From Myxococcaceae bacterium (GTDB lineage Bacteria; Myxococcota; Myxococcia; Myxococcales; UBA5297), in the NCBI GenBank assembly GCA_017500825.1, contig JAFVYB010000002.1, positions 1 through 64,000 of the forward strand: 64,000 nt of DNA. Reading direction: 5' to 3'. Positions 26,460-44,568 of the stretch are shown piece after piece. The translations under genes and the position numbers were made by a program. Within the stretch, counting starts at the first letter, position 1, and the number at the start of each line of letters is the position of its first letter. The notes under the pieces were generated by a model. It was not told the DNA's origin, searched no databases, and saw only the letters and a list, made by a program, of their open reading frames with translations.

Positions 26460-26630
26460 AAAAAGTTTCGACATTGCAGAGTGACCGATGGGAAAGACGC
26501 CCGCCCTCGCGCCAGGCAGCCGCCCGTCGACACCTCACGCGCGCCGCGGCGCGATGAACCCAAGAGACGCCATCAATCCCCAATCACTCCACGCGGCCCC
26601 TCGGTCGCATCTCATTTGAGGCTTCACCGC

Positions 26631-27740
26631 ATGAAAACTTCGAAACACGCCAAGAGCGCCCACGAGATCCAGATCGTCGACACCATCTGGGACGCCTTCG
26701 AGCAGATGGCCGACGAGATGGGCACCGACCGCGAAGGGCTCGTCAACCAGGCCATGTTCATGTTCGCCCGGCTGAACGGGTTCCTCATGCCGGTCGCCGC
26801 TGCCGGAGCCGTCGCACAGACGCCCGCCACCTCGGCGCCGATGAGCGAGACAGCCGCCCCTGTCGAAGAGAGTGAGCCCGCGGTCCCGGCCGCCGTCAGA
26901 GTCTCCGCCAAACCAGAGGCCAAGCCCGCCGCCGCCAAGGCCCCCGAAGTGGACGACGAGTTCGCTGACGACAGCAACGCCGAGGAAGAGGCCTTCCAGT
27001 CAGAGTTCGACGACGACTTCGACGCTGTCGAGCCGGATCCGGAACCTGAGCCTGAGCCCGAACCTGAACCCGAGCCGGAACCGGAACCTGAGCCAGAAGA
27101 GCCTGAGGACGCGGGCGACTTCTTCAAAGAGGACACCCCGCCGCCGCCGCCGCGCCGTTCCATGGCCCCTCCGCGCCGTGGCGCTGGTTCGTCGCTGCCG
27201 CCGCCGCCGCGCAGCCGTCGCTTCCCCAAGGCCGAGCCCGCGCCCGAGCCGGAACCTGAGCCCGCAGAGGACTTCCCGCAGGCTGTGGACGAGGAGGACG
27301 ATCGCAAGGCGGTCGCCGAGCGCGTGCTGGAGACGGCCGCCGAGCTCGAACGCCTGATCAAGGGCAAGAGCGCCGATGACGACGAAGACGCCACGCCCTT
27401 CGCGCCCGAGCCGACACCGCCTGTGGGACGCCGCGCCGCCAAACCCCGCGCGAGCGCCACCTTGGAGCTCTACTTGGTCGACGAAGAAGGCGAGCTCGAA
27501 CCGATCAAGAAGGCCCGCTACATCATCGGCCGCGGCAAGCACTGCGACATGGTCATCAACAGCGGCAAGGTCAGCCGCGAACACGCCGTCATCACCAAGG
27601 AAAACGGCGCCTTCTTCATCGAGGACCTCGGCTCGTCGAACGGCACCTGGTTCAAGAAGCAGCGCATCAAGAAGCAGCAGATCGAGGACGGTGACGAGTT
27701 CTACATCTGCGCGGACAAGGTGAAGTTCGCCCTCCGCTGA
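26631..27740 (+). CDS. FHA-domain protein with helical N-terminal domain and Glu-Pro repeat
   Basis: A 369-residue cytoplasmic protein. The C-terminal 90 residues are an FHA domain, which binds phosphothreonine: YIIGRGKHCDMVINSGKVSR, EHAVITKENGAFFIEDLGSS and NGTWFKKQRIK. The N-terminus (HEIQIVDTIWDAFEQMADEM, then DREGLVNQAMFMFARLNGFL) looks like a small helical or ribbon-helix-helix-like module. Between them lie acidic Pro-rich stretches, including about twelve Glu-Pro dipeptides (27024-27105) and Pro/Arg blocks. GAGG precedes the ATG and a terminator follows. FHA proteins act with Ser/Thr kinases, common in Myxococcota; none is in this window. Confidence 0.85.
   Translation: MKTSKHAKSAHEIQIVDTIWDAFEQMADEMGTDREGLVNQAMFMFARLNGFLMPVAAAGAVAQTPATSAPMSETAAPVEESEPAVPAAVRVSAKPEAKPAAAKAPEVDDEFADDSNAEEEAFQSEFDDDFDAVEPDPEPEPEPEPEPEPEPEPEPEEPEDAGDFFKEDTPPPPPRRSMAPPRRGAGSSLPPPPRSRRFPKAEPAPEPEPEPAEDFPQAVDEEDDRKAVAERVLETAAELERLIKGKSADDDEDATPFAPEPTPPVGRRAAKPRASATLELYLVDEEGELEPIKKARYIIGRGKHCDMVINSGKVSREHAVITKENGAFFIEDLGSSNGTWFKKQRIKKQQIEDGDEFYICADKVKFALR
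27024..27105 (+). repeat. In-frame Glu-Pro codon repeat
   Basis: A run of alternating GAG/GAA/GAC and CCN codons, about twelve Glu-Pro units, lies inside the FHA-protein gene. Synonymous codons vary, so this is protein-level repetition and not simple sequence slippage alone. Confidence 0.7.
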
Positions 27741-27851: not shown

Positions 27852-30767
27852 ATGGTTGTCCTCTCGATCATGACCGCGTTCGCGTTGTCCGCGGGTCTGC
27901 CCGCGCCGTCGCTCGCGGAGCCGGGGCCGACGATTGCCGTGCGCGCGGATCGCGGCGAGGTCTCCCAAGCCGGCACATCGATCCGGGCGGAGGGGGGCGT
28001 TGTCCTGCAGAGTGGCGATCTGTGGCTGCGGGCCGACGAGCTGCAGTTCGATCAGGCGACAGGGCAGGTCAGCGCGCGGGGCAACCTCGGGTTGGTGGAC
28101 GGCAACCTGGTGTTGGAAGGGCAGGCCGCCTCGCTCAACCTGAGCGACCCGGACACGCTGAAATTCGAAGGCGCGACGCTGTTTCAGAAGGAGTCGCCTG
28201 TCTCGCCGAAGAACTTCGCCGACTGCGCGCGGACAGAGGGGCGAGGCGCCGCGCCGACCGAATCAACGACCGCCCCAACAGCACCGCCTGACGCGCCGAC
28301 ATCCGTCCTAGCAACCTCTGCAGAGACCGCCTCCGGCGCCACTCTACCGCCCCCCTGTGACATCCCTGCCAACAGCGCCCCCGGACAAAACATAGCGCCT
28401 GACTATGACATCGCTGTCGACCGGGCGCCGACCGAAGAAGGCGCGCCGGATGTCTCTGAACAGGCGTCTGTCAACGCGGCGTCCGCGCCTGAGTCCGAGA
28501 CCGCGCCTGAGCCCAAGGTCACTTCCGAGGCCGAAAATCAGGGCGAATCCGGAAACGCGCCGATCAGCGCCGAAGAAGCGTCGACCCAAGCCCCTGCCGA
28601 CAGCGCCTCGGCGGACGCAGCCCCTGTGGATGAAGCGCCCGCCGAACAGGGAACGACCGACGCCGCGCTCCCGTCTCTGGCGCCCGAAGCCGCGTCCGGC
28701 GTCGCCTTTTCCGAGGAGGAGCGCCGCGCCTGGCGTGAGGCCGACGACTTTGCCGCCTGTCAGCCGGGCGATCTGGAGCGGTTGGGCCAAAACGCGCTGC
28801 GTCTCGACGCCGAATCCATCGAGCGCCGTGGCAACGCCTTTCACGCCCGTTCGCTCAAGCTCACCTCTTGCTCCTGCGCCGGTTCGGATTGTCCCGCCTG
28901 GTCTCTGGGCGCCTCAACGGCCAGCGTCGAACCGGGCGAGGGCGCGCTCCTGTGGTGGCCCACCTTCCGCATCCGCGACGTGCCGGTCCTCATCTTCCCG
29001 GCGCTCTACATTCCGCTCTCGACACGCCGCACCGGCCTGCTCTTCCCCAAGGTCGAGTTCGCCAGCGGCGGCGGCCTTGGCGTGGACCTGCCGTTCTTCC
29101 TCACGCTCGGCCAGAGCTACGATTTGACCTTCACGTTGGGCTTTCTCACCAAGCCGCTCCTCTCGCTCTCCAGCGTCGACACGCCGCGCGAGCACGCCTG
29201 GGGACCACGTGGATCCATCGAATTTCGCTATGCGCCCACGACCTCGACCTCGGGCCGCGTCAAGCTCTCCATGCTCCTCGATCGCGGCTTTGAGACAGCG
29301 GACGCAGAACGCGAGCGCCGGGGGCCGCGCGGGGAGCTCGTGGCGCGCCATCGTTCGCGATTTGCCCATGGGCTCGGCCTGTTTGCCGACATCGCGGCGG
29401 TGAGTGACGCGCGTTACCTCACGGACCTCTCGGACAACCTGCTGGCGGGCGCCACGCCCTACCTCCAGTCCAGCCTGCGCGGCTTTTGGCGTCAGAGCGA
29501 TTTCGAGCTGACCTTGGCGACGGGGTGGTTCCAGGATCTGATCGCGGCCAGAAGCGCCTTTTTCCCCAGCGAGAGCCCGCTCATCGGTCCGAACTCGCCC
29601 GCCTCGTATCAGCGCCCGGCGCTTTTCCTCGCCCAGATGCCGCTGCGCCGCCTCGTCGGCCGCCTGCAAATCGGCGCCGATCTCCTCGTCAGCCACCTGC
29701 GCCCCATCGCCCTCGGCGGTTCGCTGACTCGGTCGCGCCTCATGGCCTCGATTCGCTCCAGCGCGCCCGCCGACTTCTTCGCGCTCACCCGCGTCGACCT
29801 CGCCCCCCGCCTCTACCTGCCCCTCCTCAGGCGCGGTCCTCTGCGCGCGGAATTGACAGCTGGCGCCCGTGGAGACTTCAGCGCCTACACGCCCGTTCTC
29901 TCTGGCGAAGGCGAAACCTGGACCGATCTCTGGGCGCGCGCCTATGCCGACCTGCGCCTGTCCACCGAGCTCTCGCGCGTCTTCAACGCCGACTCGGACG
30001 AGCGCGCGTTGCGCCACACCATCTCCCCCAGCCTGCAGTTGCGCGCCTCGACGCGGGAATTCGGCACGCGCGACGACGAACTCGACCTCGACGACGCCCT
30101 CGATGCCATCGACGCCCTCGTCATCCCCCTGGATGAGCTCGATGCCACCAGCCGCGCCGCCTCGCCGCGCCAATTGCAGGGCGTGGCCGCCGTCCGAACG
30201 CGCCTTTCACGACGCAATGGCCAGGAACTCGTCGCCCTCACCTTGGGCCAGGGCTTCGACTTCACGCGCATGAAGTGGTCCGAGAGCTTTGCCCAGGTGC
30301 GGACCGGATTTCGCTGGGTCACGGCCAGCGTGGGCGCGCGTTTCGATCCCGAACTCAGGGCGCTGTCGCTGATTCAGGGCAAGCTGCGGTTGATGGACCC
30401 GCGCGGCGACTACCTGTCGGTCTCCTACGACCTGTTGCGCGGCAGCGGCACGAGCCTGATGCGCTCCGGACTCGACGATTTGCTGGGCGAACTCGCCAAT
30501 CCGGCGAACGACGCGCAGTTCCAGCAGATCAACGTCGGCGTGGGCGTCGTCATCGTGCGCGGCTTTGCCCTGGGCTACGGGATCCGCATCGACCCCGTGG
30601 CCGCCGACAGCGCCGACCGCGTTCTGCTGCACAGCGCCAGCATCCGCCTCAAGGGATCGTGCGACTGCTGGGGCCTCGACCTCGGCGCGGAGTGGGCGCC
30701 GGTCTCCGAGCGCTGGAGCGGCAAAATCCTCTTCACGCTCAAAAACCTCGGCTCGTTCGGCAACTGA
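27852..30767 (+). CDS. lptD: LPS-assembly outer-membrane protein LptD
   Basis: LptD, with LptE, inserts lipopolysaccharide into the outer leaflet. A signal peptide (about 22 residues) is followed by an OstA/LptA-like beta-jellyroll: VRADRGEVSQAGTSIRAEGG, WLRADELQFDQATGQVSARG. The C-terminal barrel begins about residue 350 with WWPTFRIRDVPVLIFPALYI, P-rich LSTRRTGLLFPKVEF and later LFFVxLGQ-like strands, and ends in an aromatic-poor FGN. Unusually, about 170 residues of Ala/Glu/Pro/Thr-rich low-complexity sequence (about 117-285) split the jellyroll region. Cysteines cluster in SCSCAGSDC just before the barrel. At 971 residues it is larger than typical LptD (about 780). No lptE is recognised nearby. 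Confidence 0.85.
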   Translation: MVVLSIMTAFALSAGLPAPSLAEPGPTIAVRADRGEVSQAGTSIRAEGGVVLQSGDLWLRADELQFDQATGQVSARGNLGLVDGNLVLEGQAASLNLSDPDTLKFEGATLFQKESPVSPKNFADCARTEGRGAAPTESTTAPTAPPDAPTSVLATSAETASGATLPPPCDIPANSAPGQNIAPDYDIAVDRAPTEEGAPDVSEQASVNAASAPESETAPEPKVTSEAENQGESGNAPISAEEASTQAPADSASADAAPVDEAPAEQGTTDAALPSLAPEAASGVAFSEEERRAWREADDFAACQPGDLERLGQNALRLDAESIERRGNAFHARSLKLTSCSCAGSDCPAWSLGASTASVEPGEGALLWWPTFRIRDVPVLIFPALYIPLSTRRTGLLFPKVEFASGGGLGVDLPFFLTLGQSYDLTFTLGFLTKPLLSLSSVDTPREHAWGPRGSIEFRYAPTTSTSGRVKLSMLLDRGFETADAERERRGPRGELVARHRSRFAHGLGLFADIAAVSDARYLTDLSDNLLAGATPYLQSSLRGFWRQSDFELTLATGWFQDLIAARSAFFPSESPLIGPNSPASYQRPALFLAQMPLRRLVGRLQIGADLLVSHLRPIALGGSLTRSRLMASIRSSAPADFFALTRVDLAPRLYLPLLRRGPLRAELTAGARGDFSAYTPVLSGEGETWTDLWARAYADLRLSTELSRVFNADSDERALRHTISPSLQLRASTREFGTRDDELDLDDALDAIDALVIPLDELDATSRAASPRQLQGVAAVRTRLSRRNGQELVALTLGQGFDFTRMKWSESFAQVRTGFRWVTASVGARFDPELRALSLIQGKLRLMDPRGDYLSVSYDLLRGSGTSLMRSGLDDLLGELANPANDAQFQQINVGVGVVIVRGFALGYGIRIDPVAADSADRVLLHSASIRLKGSCDCWGLDLGAEWAPVSERWSGKILFTLKNLGSFGN

Positions 30768-33625: not shown

Positions 33626-34018
33626 GGGCTCTCTCCGGCTGAGTGTTTGAACAGTGGCCCGCCCCAGGGACCGCGCCCGGCGATTTTGGACGCGCGTCTA
33701 AAAACCTGGACAGCCTTGGTCCACTGGGCCGCCCGCGAAGGGCGAATGGCCGCGCGGGATGGACGCTCCACACGCCAAACGCAAGCGCCCGAGACGCCCT
33801 TTGACCGCCCCGTTTTGCCGCGCCCGACGAGCGTTTTCCCTCTGGCCGCGGGAAATTTTCACCGCTTACCGACGCGTTGCCCCAGGCCGGTCCTGCGCCG
33901 CCTTTTTCCTTGGAGCCCCCCTCTCTCCATGGCATGGCGCCCGCCTTTCGCCCGCGCCCCCTCGCCCGTCGAGCCGGCGCCCATCCCCAACAGCCCGTCA
34001 CACACGGAGGTTTCCCCA
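33626..34018. other. Divergent intergenic region tlyA-pfp
   Basis: No gene is seen in 393 bases. A perfect 10-bp palindrome GACGCGCGTC lies at 33689-33698, followed by TAAAAA, and could be an operator, but GC-rich palindromes are common by chance. The pfp ribosome site GGAGG is at its right end. I find no convincing -35/-10 pair for either gene. Confidence 0.4.
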
Positions 34019-35239
34019 ATGTCTCAGCTCAAAGGCAAAGCCCTCGTCGCTCAAGGCGGCGGACCAACCGCGGTCATCAACCAGAGCATGGTCGGCGTGG
34101 CCCTCGAAGCGCGCAAATACCCACAGATCGAGCGCGTCTACGGCGCCATCGGCGGCGTGCGCGGCATCCTCGACGAAAACCTCGTCGACCTCTCGCAGGA
34201 GACCACGCACAACCTCGAACTCGTGGCGGCCACCCCCTCCAGCGGCCTGTGCTCCACCCGCGACAAGCCCAACGCCGACTACTGCAAGTCACTCTTCAAG
34301 GTGATGCAGGCGCACGATGTCCGCTTCTTCTTCTACTGCGGCGGCAACGACTCGTCCGACACCGTGCGCATCGTCAACGAGGAGGCCAAAAAGTCCGGCT
34401 ACGAGATGCGCGCCATCCACGTGCCCAAGACGATCGACAACGATCTCGAGGTCAACGACCACTGCCCCGGCTTTGGCTCCGCCGCCCGCTTTGTCGCCAG
34501 CGCCATGGCCGGCGCCAACCTCGACAACCGCGCCCTGCCCGGCGTCTACATCGCCGTCGTCATGGGCCGCCACGCTGGCTTCCTCACCGCCTCGGCCGCC
34601 CTCGCCAAGACCTACCCGGACGACGGCCCGCACCTCGTCTACCTGCCCGAGCGCGCCTTCGACACCGACCGCTTCCTCGCCGACGTCGAGGCCACCTACG
34701 CCAAACACGGCCGCTGCGTGATCGCCGTCTCCGAAGGCATCCAGGACAAGGACGGCACCGCCATCATCACCACCCTGAGCGAGACCGTCGAAAAGGACGC
34801 CCACGGCAATGTCCAGCTCTCTGGCACCGGCGCCCTCGGCGATTTGCTCTGCAACCTCATCAAGAAGAAGACGAGCATCAAACGCGTGCGCGCCGACACC
34901 TACGGCTATCTGCAGCGCTCCTTCCTCGGCTGCGTCTCCGATGTGGACCAGCGCGAGGCCCGCGAAGTCGGTGAGCGCGCCGTTCAATTCGCCTGCCTGC
35001 ACGACCTCGACGGCTCGGTCACCATCCACCGCGTCGGCGATTACGCCGTCGACTACAAACTCTCACCGCTGGAAGCGATTGCCGCGCGCACCCGCCACAT
35101 GCCCGACGAATTCATCAACGCCGAAGGCAATGGCGTGACCGAAGCATTCCTGCGCTATTGCCGCCCCTTGATCGGCAGCGGTTTCGCCGGCGCCCACCGC
35201 ATTCGCGCGCCCAAAGTCGCCAGCATCCTCAAGAAATAA
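34019..35239 (+). CDS. pfp: 6-phosphofructokinase, probably pyrophosphate-dependent
   Basis: A phosphofructokinase of 406 residues that makes fructose 1,6-bisphosphate. GGGPTAVINQS opens the nucleotide/PPi region. GGNDSSDT replaces the GGxGS loop of ATP enzymes, and PKTIDNDLEVNDHCPGFGSA carries Lys before TIDND, the residue found in PPi-dependent enzymes where ATP enzymes have Gly. Later MGRHAGFLTA matches the substrate site. These features favour diphosphate as phosphoryl donor and hence a reversible step. The ATG at 34019 follows GGAGG by nine bases; the frame upstream is not protein-like. A strong terminator follows. Confidence 0.88.
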   Translation: MSQLKGKALVAQGGGPTAVINQSMVGVALEARKYPQIERVYGAIGGVRGILDENLVDLSQETTHNLELVAATPSSGLCSTRDKPNADYCKSLFKVMQAHDVRFFFYCGGNDSSDTVRIVNEEAKKSGYEMRAIHVPKTIDNDLEVNDHCPGFGSAARFVASAMAGANLDNRALPGVYIAVVMGRHAGFLTASAALAKTYPDDGPHLVYLPERAFDTDRFLADVEATYAKHGRCVIAVSEGIQDKDGTAIITTLSETVEKDAHGNVQLSGTGALGDLLCNLIKKKTSIKRVRADTYGYLQRSFLGCVSDVDQREAREVGERAVQFACLHDLDGSVTIHRVGDYAVDYKLSPLEAIAARTRHMPDEFINAEGNGVTEAFLRYCRPLIGSGFAGAHRIRAPKVASILKK

Positions 35240-35579: not shown

Positions 35580-38500
35580 TTAAAAAGTAAAATACGCCAA
35601 ATCCAAATTAAAAACCCATCCTTCGCCGCCCAGGCCATTGCCGGTGTCGATCAATCGGCCGAAATGGAATTGGAAGACGAGGTTTCCCAGCGAGGCGTCA
35701 ATGCCCAGCATGGCGCTCAGGCTGCGGCGCTGCCAGGCGTCGGGCCAGGCGTCGAACACGGTGCCGAAGTCGAGGCCGGCGACAGCGCTGATGGAGCTGA
35801 AGATCGGGCTTTGGAGGAGGAAGTCGAGCGGCAGACTGAGGCGCGCGTTGAGGACGCCGTAGTCGTCGCCGATGAGGCGGGCGTCGCCGAAGCGGAAGCC
35901 CTCCATGTTGCCGATGCTGGCGAGAAAGAACTGGGGGGAGAAGCGGCCGCCGGTGCTCAGGCCGAGGCTGGCGCGCAGGAAAAGGTTCATGCGCCCCACG
36001 AGGCGGAAGCGGTGCGAGGCGTCGATTTGAAGGCGCAAAAAGCCAAAGCGTCGCAGGGGGAGGGCGCCGGCGCTGAACGTGGCGCTGAGGACGCTGCCCT
36101 CGATGGGGCCATGGCCGATGTCGAAGACGAGCGTGTCGAGCGCGAACTGCAGGGAGGTGACGATCTCCGGCTCGATGCCGCGGTTGAGCGCGCGCCAGGC
36201 GTCCTGAAGCTCGCCGCTCTCGTCGGTGAAGTCGAAGCGGTCGACGCCGCGCGCCTGAAGTCCGGCCTCCAGGAAGCGAAAGCGGTCGAGGGGGTAGCGC
36301 ACAAAGCCCGCCGCGCCGAAGTGGCGTTCGGCGAAGTAGTTCTCGACCTCGGGGAAGGTCTTGTCGCGGCGTGACTCGAAGGTGTGGAAGACGCCGATAC
36401 CCCAGATCAGGCGGCGCGACTGGTTGACATACCAGGCGAGGGCCTCGGTCAGCTCGACGCGGCCGTAGATGGCCAGGTTGAGGAGGACGAGGTGGTCGCG
36501 CATCAGGTCGGTCACGACGAGGGAGGCGGAACCGGCGGAGACGCCACCGACGAGCGCGCCCACGCCAGCTTCGAGGCGCCAGTTTTCGCGGGCAAACGGC
36601 GCGTAGACCGGATCGCCTTCGGGAAGCGGCAGTTCTGGTGAGGGGTCGAGCGCGGGCAAAGGCGGAGGGGCCATGAAGGGCGAGAGCGATTCGTCGAAGA
36701 AGTGGCGCGGTGTGACGGCAAAGGCGCGCGTCTTTCCCCGCCAGTAGCCGAGGGCGACGAGGGTTCCGTTTTCACCGGGCGTCAGATCGATCAGCGCGAA
36801 GGGCAGTTCGGTCAGGCGGCGTTGCCTGCCCGCGCGCGACAGCCAGATTTCGGCGCGACCGTCCGCGGGGGTGGCGATGAAGAGGAGATCGCGGCGCTCG
36901 GGCCTGTCCTCGCAGGCGGCACTGTCCTCGCAGGCGGAGGGGGTGGCGACTGGCAGGGGGGCGCGCGGCAGCGTCGGGGTGGTGGCGACCAGGGTTCGCT
37001 GGCCGCTTTCGACGTCCAGGGCGAACAGGCCAAAGGGACCGCGCGCGGCCATGTCGGCGGCGAAAAAGAGCGAGGGGCCGTCCCAGGCAAGGTCGGATTC
37101 GGCGGCCACATCGGCGGTCAGGCGCCGCACCTCGCCACGGCGTTCGCCTTCGAGTTGCAGCACATAGAGGTCGCGGAAGCTGTCCGGGCCAACGCCGACA
37201 AAGGCCAGGCTTTGGGCGTCGGGCGACAGCGCGGGCGAGAGCATTTCCAGCACGCCGGGAACGGTGAAGCGCTCTGCCGCCTGGAGGGTGATCTCGTGGC
37301 GGGCGCGATCGTCGACGCGGCGCCTGTTGTCGGTGAAGCGGCGCACCCAGATCACGTCGCGCGGACCATCGCGGGCGATGAAGGCGATCTTGTCCCCCCG
37401 AATGGCGGCCACGCGGCGGTTGACGGGATGGAGTGACTCGACGCCGGGCTGGCCGTCGCGCGCGACCAGGACGCGGGAGCGGGGATCGCGCGGGGATTCC
37501 ACAAAAAGGCGGCCGCGGCCGGTGCCCCGTTCGACGCTTCGGTAGAGGAGGAGCGCGCCGTCGTCAGAGCTCGCCAGCGCGTCGGGATCGCCCTCAAGTC
37601 GGCTGAAGATCTCGAAGTCGGCGATGTCGTGCGCGGTCTCGAAGAAGTCGCGGAAATAGCGGCGCTTCATCCAGGTCCGGTAACGCGCCTCGATGACCTC
37701 TCTGGGCACGCCAACCACCCTGGCCACGTGTTCGGCGAACGTGCGCGGCGGACGCTTCGCCAAAGCCTGTGTCGGGTCGAGATCTTCGGACAGGCCGTCC
37801 TGAGACGACTCGCCTTCGGGCAGCGACTCTCGGAGTCTCTCGGCGATGTCCGGTTCGGCGTCGGCGCTGTCGCGGGGGGATTCGCGGCGCGTGTCAGGGG
37901 GCTCGGTGGCGGTCGGCGGCGTCTCGGCCCCCTTTTCGGCGAGGAGCTCAAAGACGCTGGCTGGCGCGCGTGACAGCTGCGGCGAGCGCTCCAGGATTTC
38001 GCGGATTTTGGCGGCGCCGAACGTCTCGGCGAGGAACGCCACCCGCGCCTGACCCAGCTTGTAGACACCGAGGTAGCCGCGCGCCCCATCGTCGAAAAAA
38101 TCGGGCAGCGCGTAGCCCTGAGTCGGGTCGGGATTGACGACGAGGTCGCGCAAAAAGGCGTCTGTCTCCGGGTCGATGCCCCCAAGCGATGCCCACTCGG
38201 CGATCCCCTCGATGAACCAGAGCGGCAAACGGCCGATGGGGTTGGGCGCGCCTACGTCCGCCGCCGCGTCGCGCACCTTCTGCACGGTGAACTGGTGCGC
38301 CATCTCGTGGGCCGACACGCGCGCGAAGGTCGGCAGGTCGCCAAAAAAGGGCATGGCCATGCGCAGATCGCCCGGATCGGTGACGCCCAGAGTCCCCTCG
38401 GCGAGCGCGAAAACCCGTGTGGCGAGAAATTCGGACTGCGTGGCGTAGAGCACGAACGGGACGCGCCTCGTCGGCAGGTAGTCGAACAGGCGCGAGAGCC

Positions 38501-38801
38501 GCAGGTAGGTGTCGCCGAGGACGGGAATGGCCAGGGACGCCGCCCGACGCGCGCGGCTGTCGAAGAAGAGTCGAATCCCCGCGCCGCCCACGCCGACGCC
38601 AAAGTCGTGCGTCCGCCAGTCGAAGCTCCAGTAGGCGACGTTGTTTTTGCCTGGCTCAGCCGGCTGCACGTGAATGGCCGGGTAGGGCGAGAGCGACAGG
38701 CGATCAGGGGCGAGGCGAAGGGCGCCGGGCAGGCCACGGGCGGACAATGGCCACAGGCCGAGGAGGGCGGCGAGGACGAGGCGAACGAGGGGCGCCGACA
38801 T
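35580..38801 (-). CDS. Secreted metalloprotease / beta-propeller / outer-membrane barrel fusion
   Basis: A 1073-residue protein with three parts. After a signal peptide (MSAPLVRLVLAALLGLWPLS) comes a gluzincin-like metallopeptidase domain with HEMAH at residues 165-169 and WFIEGIAEW about 30 residues later, the pattern of MA-clan peptidases. Residues about 290-400 are a Pro/Asp/Glu/Ser-rich linker. Residues about 450-740 look like a TolB/PD40 beta-propeller (LSPALSPDAQSLAFVGVG, AESDLAWDGPSLFFAADM). The last 280 residues resemble a BamA/Omp85-type barrel: GNMEGFRFGDARLIG, paired aromatic strands and terminal Phe (LAYFTF). The likely layout is a barrel in the outer membrane with protease and propeller exported or periplasmic. 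Start 38801 begins the signal peptide. The gene is monocistronic. Confidence 0.8.
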   Translation of the reverse strand: MSAPLVRLVLAALLGLWPLSARGLPGALRLAPDRLSLSPYPAIHVQPAEPGKNNVAYWSFDWRTHDFGVGVGGAGIRLFFDSRARRAASLAIPVLGDTYLRLSRLFDYLPTRRVPFVLYATQSEFLATRVFALAEGTLGVTDPGDLRMAMPFFGDLPTFARVSAHEMAHQFTVQKVRDAAADVGAPNPIGRLPLWFIEGIAEWASLGGIDPETDAFLRDLVVNPDPTQGYALPDFFDDGARGYLGVYKLGQARVAFLAETFGAAKIREILERSPQLSRAPASVFELLAEKGAETPPTATEPPDTRRESPRDSADAEPDIAERLRESLPEGESSQDGLSEDLDPTQALAKRPPRTFAEHVARVVGVPREVIEARYRTWMKRRYFRDFFETAHDIADFEIFSRLEGDPDALASSDDGALLLYRSVERGTGRGRLFVESPRDPRSRVLVARDGQPGVESLHPVNRRVAAIRGDKIAFIARDGPRDVIWVRRFTDNRRRVDDRARHEITLQAAERFTVPGVLEMLSPALSPDAQSLAFVGVGPDSFRDLYVLQLEGERRGEVRRLTADVAAESDLAWDGPSLFFAADMAARGPFGLFALDVESGQRTLVATTPTLPRAPLPVATPSACEDSAACEDRPERRDLLFIATPADGRAEIWLSRAGRQRRLTELPFALIDLTPGENGTLVALGYWRGKTRAFAVTPRHFFDESLSPFMAPPPLPALDPSPELPLPEGDPVYAPFARENWRLEAGVGALVGGVSAGSASLVVTDLMRDHLVLLNLAIYGRVELTEALAWYVNQSRRLIWGIGVFHTFESRRDKTFPEVENYFAERHFGAAGFVRYPLDRFRFLEAGLQARGVDRFDFTDESGELQDAWRALNRGIEPEIVTSLQFALDTLVFDIGHGPIEGSVLSATFSAGALPLRRFGFLRLQIDASHRFRLVGRMNLFLRASLGLSTGGRFSPQFFLASIGNMEGFRFGDARLIGDDYGVLNARLSLPLDFLLQSPIFSSISAVAGLDFGTVFDAWPDAWQRRSLSAMLGIDASLGNLVFQFHFGRLIDTGNGLGGEGWVFNLDLAYFTF

Positions 38802-39244
38802 GCCGACGCGCGCGGACAAACAGGGCAAGCGTCTCTTCCTCACACCGGCGCGATTGGGGCGTCGCATCGGGCAACTCGCCTTGTGGAGATCACGGACGCG
38901 AAAGGTGGACGGGCCCAGGCGATCGCGCAGGCGCTGATTTGGGCGCCTCCCCCAAGACACAGCGACGCGGGCCAAAAGAACGCTAACCCTTTGAAATCAA
39001 AGGGATTTTTGCCGTTCGGAACACTCCGGAGCGCCTGCTTGACAGCCCTGGGGGCACTCTCTAGAGAGCGCCGCCTTTTTGAGCCCCCCGCCCAGGGAAG
39101 CGCGACATCGGCACCCGGCGAGGGCCTTCTGCGCGGGCACGGCGAGAGGTCAGCTTGGCTGTTTTTGGCGAAGCGAACGCGGCGCCCGGCCATCCAAGGG
39201 CGCCCTTCGGCAGAACGCCCACACGCACGAGGTCTCAGGTCCGC
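38802..39244. other. Divergent intergenic region before iscS
   Basis: No gene is seen in 443 bases. A promoter-like TTGACA/TAGAGA pair at 39039-39067 points towards iscS and would leave a leader of about 170 bases. CTCTCTAGAGAG at 39057-39068, overlapping the -10, is a perfect 12-bp palindrome and could be a repressor site; iscR itself is not here. Confidence 0.45.
39039..39067 (+). promoter_or_regulatory. Candidate isc promoter with overlapping palindrome
   Basis: TTGACA (39039-39044), 17-bp spacer, TAGAGA (39062-39067). The -10 lies inside the palindrome CTCTCTAGAGAG (39057-39068), a place where a repressor could block transcription. Confidence 0.5.
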
Positions 39245-40468
39245 ATGACGCTCAAGCTGCCCATCTACTTCGATAATCAAGCAACCACGCCCGTCGACCC
39301 GCGCGTGCTCGAAGCCATGCTCCCCTATTTCACCGAGCACTTTGGCAACGCGGCGAGCCGCTCCCACGCCTTTGGCTGGGTCGCAGAAGAAGCGGTCGAG
39401 CGTGCCCGCGAGCAGGTGGCGAAGCTCATCGGCGCGAGGAATCCCAAGGACATCGTCTGGACCTCGGGCGCCACCGAAGCCACCAACCTGGCGATCAAGG
39501 GCGTGGCCGAGAGCTACCGGCAGAAGGGCGACCACTTCGTCACCCAGAAGACCGAGCACAAGGCGACGCTCGACACGATGAAGCACCTGGAGAAGCGGGG
39601 CTTTCGCGTCACCTATCTCGACGTGGACAGCGAGGGCCGCGTGAACCCCGAGGACGTGCGCGCCGCCATCACCGACAAGACGCTGCTCGTCTCGGTCATG
39701 CTGGCCAACAACGAGGTCGGCACGATTCAGCCGGTCGCCGACATCGGGCGCATTTGTCGCGAGAAGGGCGTGCTCTTCCACTGCGACGCGGTGCAGGGCG
39801 CGGGCAAAATCCCCTTCAACGTCGACGACGCCTGCGTCGACCTCGCCTCGCTCTCCGGCCACAAGATCTACGGCCCCAAGGGCGTGGGCGCGCTCTACGT
39901 CCGGCGCGACAAACCGCGCGTCCAAATCACCGCCCAGATCGACGGCGGCGGCCACGAACGGCGCATGCGATCGGGCACGCTCAACGTCCCGGGCATCGTC
40001 GGCTTCGGCAAGGCGTGCGAGCTGTGCGCCCAGGAGATGGACGAGGAATCGGCCCGCGTCGCCGCGCTGCGCGATCGCCTGGAAAAGGGCCTCTTCGAGA
40101 ACATCGACCTCTTGCATCTCAACGGCTGCCGCGCCCACCGCCTGCCGGGCAACCTCAACGTGTCGTTCCCCTACGTCGAAGGCGAGTCGCTGATGATGGC
40201 GCTCAAGGACGTGGCCGTCAGCTCTGGTTCGGCCTGCACCTCGGCCTCGCTCGAACCCTCCTACGTGCTCACGGCCATGGGGGTGACCGACGAGCTGGCC
40301 CACACCTCGATCCGATTCAGCCTGGGGCGGTTCAACACGGTCGAAGAAGTCGACCACGTCGTCCAGCTCGCCATCGAAAAGGTGCGCAAGCTGCGCGACC
40401 TGAGCCCGCTCTACGAGATGGCCAAAGAGGGCATCGACCTCTCGAAAATCGACTGGAACGAGAAGTGA
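39245..40468 (+). CDS. iscS: Cysteine desulfurase IscS
   Basis: A PLP enzyme that removes sulfur from L-cysteine and passes it as persulfide to IscU and other acceptors. The 407-residue product has the start [32 protein letters not shown], the PLP-binding Lys at 207 in [12 protein letters not shown], and the catalytic Cys331 in [17 protein letters not shown], typical of group I (IscS/NifS). The ATG at 39245 is chosen over one 90 bases upstream because family sequence begins there. It leads the iscS-iscU-iscA-hscB set. Confidence 0.96.
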
Positions 40469-42367: not shown

Positions 42368-43531
42368 TCAGCGCCCGTAGATGATCGACTCTTTGTGGAA
42401 GAGCCGTTCGACGACGAGGAGCGCCACCGCCGAGTAGGCCAGGCTCGTCAGCCAGGTGAGCGCCAGGGACGCGGGCGAGAGCGGCGTCAGTTTGACCACG
42501 TCGAGCACGAGCATCTGCTGCGAGAGCACCGGCACCGCGCTCATCCACAGCGCCGAGTCGAACGGATTGAGCAGCACGATCACCGCCGGCAGCGTCGGGG
42601 CCAGGTTGAAGAGGCTGAGGTAGGTCTGCGCCTCTTTGAACGAGTGGGCGAAGGTGGCCACCAGCATCTGCAGCGCGGCGCCGACAAAGGTGAGCGGGGT
42701 GAGGATGGCGAACATGGCGCCGATTCGTCCCCAGGTGAGGCGGAAGGGCACGCCCAGGCTGTCGAGCGGGGCCACAAGGAGCGCCACGGCAAAGCCGACG
42801 AGGCAGAGCGCGACGATGGCGATCGAGGCGACGACCGCCGCCGCCCATTTGCCGAGCACGATCGACAGTCGTGAGGCCGAGGTGAGGAGCAATGGTTCCA
42901 GCGATCCGCGCTCGCGCTCGCCCGCGGTCACGTCGATGACGAGATTCATGCCGCCGACAAAGGCCGCCATCATGAGGAAGAGTGGAATCATCGTCAGCAG
43001 CTGCGCCGCGCGCTGGGCCGGAGTCGCCACGTCCAGTTCGGAGATGGTCATCGGTTGCGCCACCGCCGGATCGACCCCCCGCGCGAAGAGCCTGAGCGCG
43101 CCGAGGCGCTGCGACCATGAGAGCAGAAGCACCTGCACGCGCTGGATGTCCTTGGCCGCCGCAGTGTTCGAGCGATCGACGACGAGCGTCAGCGCCGCGG
43201 GCTCACCAGAGCGAAAATGGGCGCCAAAATCCTCGTCCACGATGAGGCCCAGCTTGGACTGCCCCGACCTGACGCGCGATTCCGGGCTCTCGGTCTGAGG
43301 TTGGACGGTGACGCCCTCGCCTTCGAGGTAGCGCACGAGCTCAGGGGCGCGTTCGGCACCCTGCACCGGCAGCACGATCGGCGTCTCCCGCATCCAGCCG
43401 TCGAGCACAAAGAAGAGCAGGGCAAAGCAGAGCGGACCGCTGACGGGCAGGACAAGGGCGGCGAGGAGTGAGCGGCGATCGCGCAGGTGATCGCCGAGCT
43501 CCTTTTTCAGGACGGTGAGGGCGAATCGCAT
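42368..43531 (-). CDS. ABC-2 type permease, NatB-like
   Basis: A 387-residue membrane protein. One helix lies at the N-terminus (SLLAALVLPVSGPLCFALLF), then an extracytoplasmic domain of about 140 residues, then five or six helices in the C-terminal half. DVTAGERERGSLEPLLLTSA is the hallmark of ABC-2/NatB permeases. NatB proteins work with a NatA ATPase, for example in sodium export, but no ATPase gene is adjacent. Its start overlaps the end of the LpxL-like gene by 25 bases, so the two are translationally linked. Substrate unknown. Confidence 0.88.
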   Translation of the reverse strand: MRFALTVLKKELGDHLRDRRSLLAALVLPVSGPLCFALLFFVLDGWMRETPIVLPVQGAERAPELVRYLEGEGVTVQPQTESPESRVRSGQSKLGLIVDEDFGAHFRSGEPAALTLVVDRSNTAAAKDIQRVQVLLLSWSQRLGALRLFARGVDPAVAQPMTISELDVATPAQRAAQLLTMIPLFLMMAAFVGGMNLVIDVTAGERERGSLEPLLLTSASRLSIVLGKWAAAVVASIAIVALCLVGFAVALLVAPLDSLGVPFRLTWGRIGAMFAILTPLTFVGAALQMLVATFAHSFKEAQTYLSLFNLAPTLPAVIVLLNPFDSALWMSAVPVLSQQMLVLDVVKLTPLSPASLALTWLTSLAYSAVALLVVERLFHKESIIYGR

Positions 43532-44568
43532 GGAGGCTCCGAAGGGGCGTCGTGGGGCGTGACGGCAGATGGCGCGCCTGTGGGCGACCCGACGACGGCG
43601 GCTGAAGCTGATGTGGCAGCGACAGCTTCGCCTGAAGTGACGGCGGGCGGCGGCAGGTGCTTCCAGCGCTCGTGGAACCAGGGCCAGGCGCCCGGATCAC
43701 GGCGAATCGCCCGCTCCACCGAAAGCGTCAGCGTCTGCAGCAATTGGGCGACATCGCGCTCCCGATCACCCGTTCGCTCGACCGCGACGCGCTCGACGAC
43801 GACGACGTGCCCACCCTCTGGCTTGCGGTGGATGAAGGCAGTGATCACGGGACAGCCCCGCTCGATGGCGAGGTCGGCGATGCCGCGCTGCGTGTGAGCT
43901 GGCTTGCCGAAGAAATCGACGAACAGGCCGCGCCCTCTGGTGTCCTGATCGATGAGGAGGCCGATGGCCTCCCCCCTGTCGAGCGCCCGGTTGAGCCCGT
44001 CAAAGGCCGCGCCGCGCTCCCGACCGCGCCAGATGATGTTGTAGCCGCCACGCCGCCGCAGCCGGTCGATGAAGGCGGTCATGTGCGGGTCGCTCGACAC
44101 CTTGGCCACCACGCTCGCCGGATGCCCGATGAGGCCCAGACGGCGCGCCATCAGCTCGAAATTGCCGACATGCCCCGTGGCCAAAAGCACGCCCTGTCCC
44201 TCGGCGATGGCGCCCTCGTAGCGGGCCCGATCCTCGGGCGAGAGCTCGACGTAGCCCTCGATGTCGCGCGTGATCGCCTCGATGCGACAGACCTCGCCGA
44301 TAAAGTTGCCAAAGTGTTCGAAGCAGGCGCGCGCGATCCGTTCCCGTTCGCCGTCGCCCAGCTCGGGGTAGGCCGTCGCCAGATTGGCGAGCACCTTGCG
44401 CCGCAGCTTGGGGACACACATGCCCAGGCCGGCGATCGAGCGACCAAGCGCCATCGCCACGTTCAGGGGCAGGAGGCTGGCGGCCGCGTAGAGCGCGCGC
44501 AGAAGGCAGTAACGGGCAAAACGCCGGGCGCGTTTGAGGGCGGGGACGCGCTTGTCAGTCGAGGGCAT
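43507..44568 (-). CDS. LpxL/HtrB-like lipid A acyltransferase
   Basis: A 353-residue membrane-bound acyltransferase of the lysophospholipid acyltransferase superfamily that probably adds a secondary acyl chain to lipid A. One N-terminal membrane anchor is present (YCLLRALYAAASLLPLNVAM). The catalytic HX4E appears as HVGNFE in LLATGHVGNFELMARR. DQDTRGRGLFVDFFGKPAHT and ERGCPVITAFIHRKPEGGHV fit the family, as does DPGAWPWFHERWK. The last 40 residues are a low-complexity Ala/Ser/Pro tail. The permease gene overlaps its 3' end. Confidence 0.88.
   Translation of the reverse strand: MPSTDKRVPALKRARRFARYCLLRALYAAASLLPLNVAMALGRSIAGLGMCVPKLRRKVLANLATAYPELGDGERERIARACFEHFGNFIGEVCRIEAITRDIEGYVELSPEDRARYEGAIAEGQGVLLATGHVGNFELMARRLGLIGHPASVVAKVSSDPHMTAFIDRLRRRGGYNIIWRGRERGAAFDGLNRALDRGEAIGLLIDQDTRGRGLFVDFFGKPAHTQRGIADLAIERGCPVITAFIHRKPEGGHVVVVERVAVERTGDRERDVAQLLQTLTLSVERAIRRDPGAWPWFHERWKHLPPPAVTSGEAVAATSASAAVVGSPTGAPSAVTPHDAPSEPPCDSPSPS

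Follow-up and report, generated by a model that had tools for sequence, protein, structure and literature searches.

A probable outer-membrane-anchored zinc protease built on an Omp85-type barrel in a Myxococcaceae bacterium

We find that one gene in a 64,000-nucleotide stretch of Myxococcaceae DNA (the window) encodes a predicted zinc protease, a TolB-like β-propeller and an Omp85-type barrel on a single chain, and we regard the product as probably a periplasmic protease anchored in the outer membrane, whose most likely role would be to process envelope proteins or control their quality. A sequence-only reading of the same DNA had proposed these three parts, and the features it named (a signal peptide, HEMAH, WFIEGIAEW, a PD40-like middle, the stretch GNMEGFRFGDARLIG and a terminal Phe1073) are all present; Pfam matches of relatives, Foldseek and AlphaFold agree in placing protease, propeller and barrel in one chain. 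The protein is not an isolated oddity but belongs to a family spread over several phyla. We file it as a protease-bearing variant of WD40-Omp85, a class that is known but, as far as the available text of its defining paper goes, functionally uncharacterised. The coordinates of its features are collected in Table 1.

The gene runs on the minus strand from an ATG at 38801 to a stop codon at 35582-35580; the plus strand over 35580-38801 has internal stops and no through frame. Codon GC by position (0.70/0.50/0.84) is usual for a real gene here. Upstream of the ATG the same frame stays open to a TTG at 38975, and we prefer the ATG, with some uncertainty, because the putative signal peptide begins there and a homologue from the same genus (L001) opens with a similar one. 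The neighbouring genes, phosphofructokinase (33965-35236, plus strand) and a NifS-like class-V aminotransferase (39155-40465, plus strand), are convergent and divergent, respectively, so the gene is probably monocistronic. Searched alone, the protein has no significant match in Pfam, NCBIfam or PDB sequences and only two marginal ones in NCBIfam; its domain families come up once relatives are scanned with Pfam.

Table 1. Features of the 1073-residue protein and their positions in the window.
Feature	Residues	Position	Strand	Basis
Whole gene	1073 aa	35580..38801	-	Open reading frame; similar signal peptide in L001
Sec signal peptide (probable)	1-23	38733..38801	-	Sequence reading; helix 3-15 in model
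Gluzincin (Peptidase MA-like) domain, predicted	52-292	37926..38648	-	Peptidase_MA_2 in relatives; Foldseek M1, M9
HEMAH zinc-binding motif	165-169	38295..38309	-	H165, E166, H169 invariant 44/44
WFIEGIAEW, with E198 as putative third zinc ligand	195-203	38193..38219	-	E198, E202 invariant 44/44
Low-complexity linker, probably disordered	292-341	37779..37928	-	pLDDT below 50
TolB-like β-propeller	about 400-700	36702..37604	-	PD40 in relatives; TolB profile; Foldseek TolB
Omp85-type 16-strand barrel, terminal Phe1073	741-1073	35583..36581	-	AlphaFold; Foldseek; PF01103 in relatives
L6 loop; MEGF (966-969) replaces (V/L)RG(F/Y)	950-979	35865..35954	-	Alignment, model
Glu967; Arg in 40/40 sequences outside the clade	967	35901..35903	-	Alignment A1
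Arg987, strand β-12; Glu in 39/40 sequences outside the clade	987	35841..35843	-	Alignment A1
GLDFG, the (F/G)xDxG motif on strand β-13	1009-1013	35763..35777	-	D1011, G1013 invariant

The case for catalysis rests on an alignment (A1) of 44 near-complete homologues reaching down to about 20% identity, in all of which H165, E166, H169, E198 and E202 are unchanged. With an HExxH followed after 28 residues by E198, the domain has the signature of a gluzincin of clan MA(E), and its resemblance to M1 and M9 gluzincins suggests that E198 binds zinc as the third ligand. M1 aminopeptidases and M9 collagenases, both of clan MA, have in common with the window protein an HExxH and a later Glu in an EG-A motif, although by sequence the protein belongs to neither family. 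Among the 44 members Pfam matches Peptidase_MA_2 in 20, M61 in nine and M9 in two. When the domain was modelled separately (pTM 0.76), Foldseek returned M1 aminopeptidases and the peptidase domains of collagenases T and G (M9), at query-normalised TM-scores of only 0.3-0.4, and a profile comparison with M9 collagenases gave a weak match over the WxEGxAEY segment (E 0.14, not significant alone). According to these fold matches, HEMAH and the third Glu would sit in an M1/collagenase-like domain and not on a ligand-less helix. Since the zinc ligands and the general base are invariant in the 44 aligned sequences, the protein is likely an active protease, which bears out the earlier proposal of a gluzincin with its full set of ligands.

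For the propeller, PD40 is matched by Pfam in 41 of the 44 relatives, the family profile finds TolB at E 4e-23, and TolB is among the Foldseek matches of the full model. That model (pTM 0.82, mean pLDDT 83.5) places high-confidence strands, counted as 16, between residues 741 and 1070. A barrel had been predicted for the chain end, and the last ~330 residues are indeed modelled as one; a soluble fold was not seen there. Strands 11 and 12 are joined by a long loop, placed as L6 is in Omp85 proteins; the position and the Gly-Phe of its (V/I)RG(Y/F) motif are retained, with the near-universal Arg replaced by Glu in the clade of the window protein, and D1011 and G1013 are invariant across A1. The closest solved folds of the barrel in Foldseek are TamA, Sam50, Toc75 and BamA (TamA barrel 8us4, TMt 0.74), PF01103 is matched in 12 of the 44 relatives, and a profile over the barrel finds 9ccg, a POTRA-domain protein, at E 1e-9. 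On the grounds of the 16 strands, the TamA, Sam50 and BamA folds, the positions of L6 and GxDxG, and PF01103 in relatives, the modelled barrel belongs to the Omp85 superfamily. The predicted secondary structure shows no obvious POTRA-like segment where the propeller runs into the barrel; a POTRA domain is usual but not universal in the superfamily, which has recognised subfamilies of non-POTRA type (PMC4104836).

WD40-Omp85 was defined by Heinz and Lithgow in 2014 and, in the text available, likened to a fusion of BamA and BamB (PMC4104836). As described there, its members have a TolB-like propeller before an Omp85 barrel and lack POTRA domains, as does the window protein; the main text, in its available part, mentions no protease domain, and the 'Metallo' class it names is PF00149, another family. 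Our literature search, over the text accessible to it, found no description of the full three-domain architecture or of a gluzincin domain in WD40-Omp85, and it found no function reported for the class. The Omp85 proteins characterised so far mostly act in the assembly or secretion of other proteins, PlpD having lately been shown to differ, and the invariant protease active site gives WD40-Omp85 a biochemical activity that can be tested. PlpD (patatin-Omp85, 'type Vd') likewise joins an N-terminal enzyme to an Omp85 barrel on one chain, but with a lipase and one POTRA where the window protein has a protease and a propeller; assignment to type Vd was rejected because a gluzincin and a propeller stand in place of patatin and POTRA. 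Type Va autotransporters also carry passenger and barrel on one chain. Their barrel has twelve strands and the passenger is threaded outside; with 16 strands and Omp85 matches the window protein is not of type Va, and the kinship in layout to autotransporters suggested earlier gives way to an Omp85-type barrel resembling TamA, Sam50 and BamA. The zinc protease BepA (M48), taken together with BamA and BamB, assembles the same inventory at the outer membrane (periplasmic protease, propeller, Omp85 barrel), but as separate proteins and with a protease of another family, and would thus be a functional parallel only.

A pattern-based scan of genome contigs picked out 37 loci, two of them (L036 and L037) short, weak matches, in Myxococcota, Schekmanbacteria, Zixibacteria, KSB1, Delongbacteria, Chlorobiaceae, Ignavibacteria and others; those from Myxococcota include Anaeromyxobacter, Myxococcus and Nannocystineae. 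Even where identity falls to about 20%, the whole architecture is contained in open frames 920-1378 codons long. Matches to the window protein occur in 107 of 174 genomes of the phylum (a few weak and partial) and in 46 of 60 related genomes, a wide conservation in the order that suits a housekeeping role. A genome of the same genus (G002, about 89% complete) has no match, so the gene may not be essential. The outer-membrane proteome of M. xanthus includes a 'TolB protein', MXAN5756 (PMC3222651), which is a candidate orthologue. The genome of the window also encodes a very diverged paralogue of 1023 residues (P0002; G000 contig C63, L057:830-3901, plus strand), barely alignable to the window protein (P0001), in which HELTH, WVVEGFA, a PD40 propeller and an Omp85 barrel with LRGY can be read; it has strong matches in many of the 60 related genomes and some match in all 60, many of these weak and on the propeller only.

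Outside Myxococcota, in three phyla, the family member is followed immediately on its 3' side by a BamB-like gene; six loci show this, four in Zixibacteria, one in KSB1 and one in Chlorobiaceae (L019, L022, L024, L025, L026 and L033). Pfam matches PQQ_2 on three of the six proteins, one per phylum, the rest having been assigned by sequence similarity, and a lipobox-like Cys was read by eye in these neighbours. At two Zixibacteria loci (L019, L024) and the KSB1 locus (L022) the likely ATG of the BamB-like gene falls a few bases past the stop of the family gene. 'BamB' denotes a resemblance, PQQ_2 being a broad family. In Myxococcota we found no adjoining gene that is conserved across families, and a tblastn comparison of 10-20 kb in one same-genus and two same-family genomes did not find the window neighbours it covered (PFK, NifS, LptD, HEAT, TlyA and others) beside the orthologues.

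We favour a protease on the periplasmic side and not on the surface on the basis of Omp85 topology, in which L6, between strands 11 and 12, would lie within the barrel and both termini, with the N-terminal domains, would be periplasmic, and of the precedent of PlpD, the one Omp85-enzyme fusion that we found tested in vivo, whose enzyme domain stays in the periplasm (PMC11116518). The propeller, being closest to periplasmic TolB, argues the same way, and the BamB-like gene beside six loci, together with topology and PlpD, points to envelope maintenance. On this model Sec would export the protein and BAM would insert the C-terminal Omp85 barrel into the outer membrane, with the propeller and the zinc protease hanging from it into the periplasm. 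The protease, through HExxH and Glu198, would cleave polypeptides close to the periplasmic face of the outer membrane, while the propeller may dock or filter substrates or partners. The role would resemble that of BepA, but on the protein's own barrel; BepA, a metalloprotease of the envelope that acts on the assembly of outer-membrane proteins (PMC8423444), is a precedent. Counting against periplasmic quality control are the want of a cross-family neighbour found in Myxococcota and an LptD linkage not found in three relatives, one of the same genus, and a BepA-like role may already be filled, since an M48 protease and a PQQ_2 protein are encoded separately in the same genome.

Were the barrel or BAM to put propeller and protease outside the cell, as in a type Vd-like 'autotransporter', the protein would be a surface protease, which we think unlikely. 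Myxobacteria are predators with many secreted proteases, and the Omp85 relatives FhaC and CdiB translocate polypeptides, both of which speak for this reading. For PlpD, too, secretion of the enzyme domain was the original proposal (PMC11116518), but that domain turned out to be periplasmic. Furthermore, the barrel retains the long L6 and the GxDxG motif, which in solved Omp85 structures dock to form a lid (PMC4490367), folded domains of about 700 residues would need to get past this lid, and some of the phyla with family members are not known to be predatory. Of the barrel-anchored surface protease proposed from the sequence, then, the anchor stands, whereas Omp85 topology and the PlpD analogy favour the periplasm over the surface.

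It is similarly improbable, in our judgement, that the protein is an assembly or translocation factor in the first place, with a barrel that inserts or secretes proteins, a propeller standing in for BamB and a protease that trims or clears clients. TamA and BamA are among the best fold matches, a BamB-like gene is found next door in three phyla, and the available text of Heinz and Lithgow suggests an assembly role for WD40-Omp85 (PMC4104836); set against this are the lack of an evident POTRA-like segment and a genome that already has BamA, a TamA-like protein and another POTRA-Omp85. A non-catalytic scaffold that only binds zinc is very hard to reconcile with a catalytic Glu166 invariant in 44 of 44 sequences, to about 20% identity, as pseudo-enzymes usually lose this residue.

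The barrel of the probable periplasmic protease also has an unusual lid. Structures of Omp85 proteins show the L6-motif Arg paired with the strand-13 Asp of (F/G)xDxG (PMC4490367), and in CdiB a Glu on strand 12 is a further partner of this Arg (PMC7644211). We scanned A1 for charge reversals over the 40 columns in which one charge sign is held by at least 80% of the 40 non-clade sequences. In the four clade members the sign has flipped in just two of these columns, 967 (Arg to Glu) and 987 (Glu to Arg), and at 1044 the charge is lost (Arg to Gln). The swap is absent from the 40 other sequences of A1 and is confined, among those aligned, to the family of the window protein; its four bearers form one clade (support 100/100), so it counts as a single evolutionary event, not as four independent observations. 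On the basis of strand and motif, we infer that the Glu usual at position 987 is the counterpart of the strand-12 Glu of CdiB. Arg and Glu stand as usual at the lid-lock positions in the control sequences, namely four further Omp85 proteins encoded by this genome, judged by reading, and the second copy (L078) carried by G004, a genome from the same family. At the level of the alignment, the reciprocal L6/β-12 charge swap is a new detail of the window family. Tentatively, and with considerable doubt, the whole protein might be a single-chain outer-membrane quality-control machine, comprising protease, BamB/TolB-like sensor and Omp85 gate, with a polarity-reversed Glu967-Arg987 lid lock. If true, the swap is nature's own charge-reversal experiment on a contact that ranks among the best conserved in the Omp85 superfamily. 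It lends itself to a double-mutant cycle pairing the L6 Arg with the β-12 Glu: if R-to-E breaks BamA or FhaC and added E-to-R rescues it, the β-12 partner shares the lid lock with the β-13 Asp.

Elsewhere in the window, an LptD gene 5 kb away was considered as a functional clue and dropped, as it was not found beside the orthologue in three relatives. The LptD-like protein itself (27852-30764, plus strand; PF04453, 8e-11) includes an acidic stretch of roughly 160 inserted residues rich in Ala, Pro and Thr. A lipid A acyltransferase family protein (PF03279) is encoded at 43510-44568 on the minus strand, and the product of 26481-27740 (plus strand) has, by reading only, a long Pro-Glu repeat and an apparent C-terminal FHA domain.
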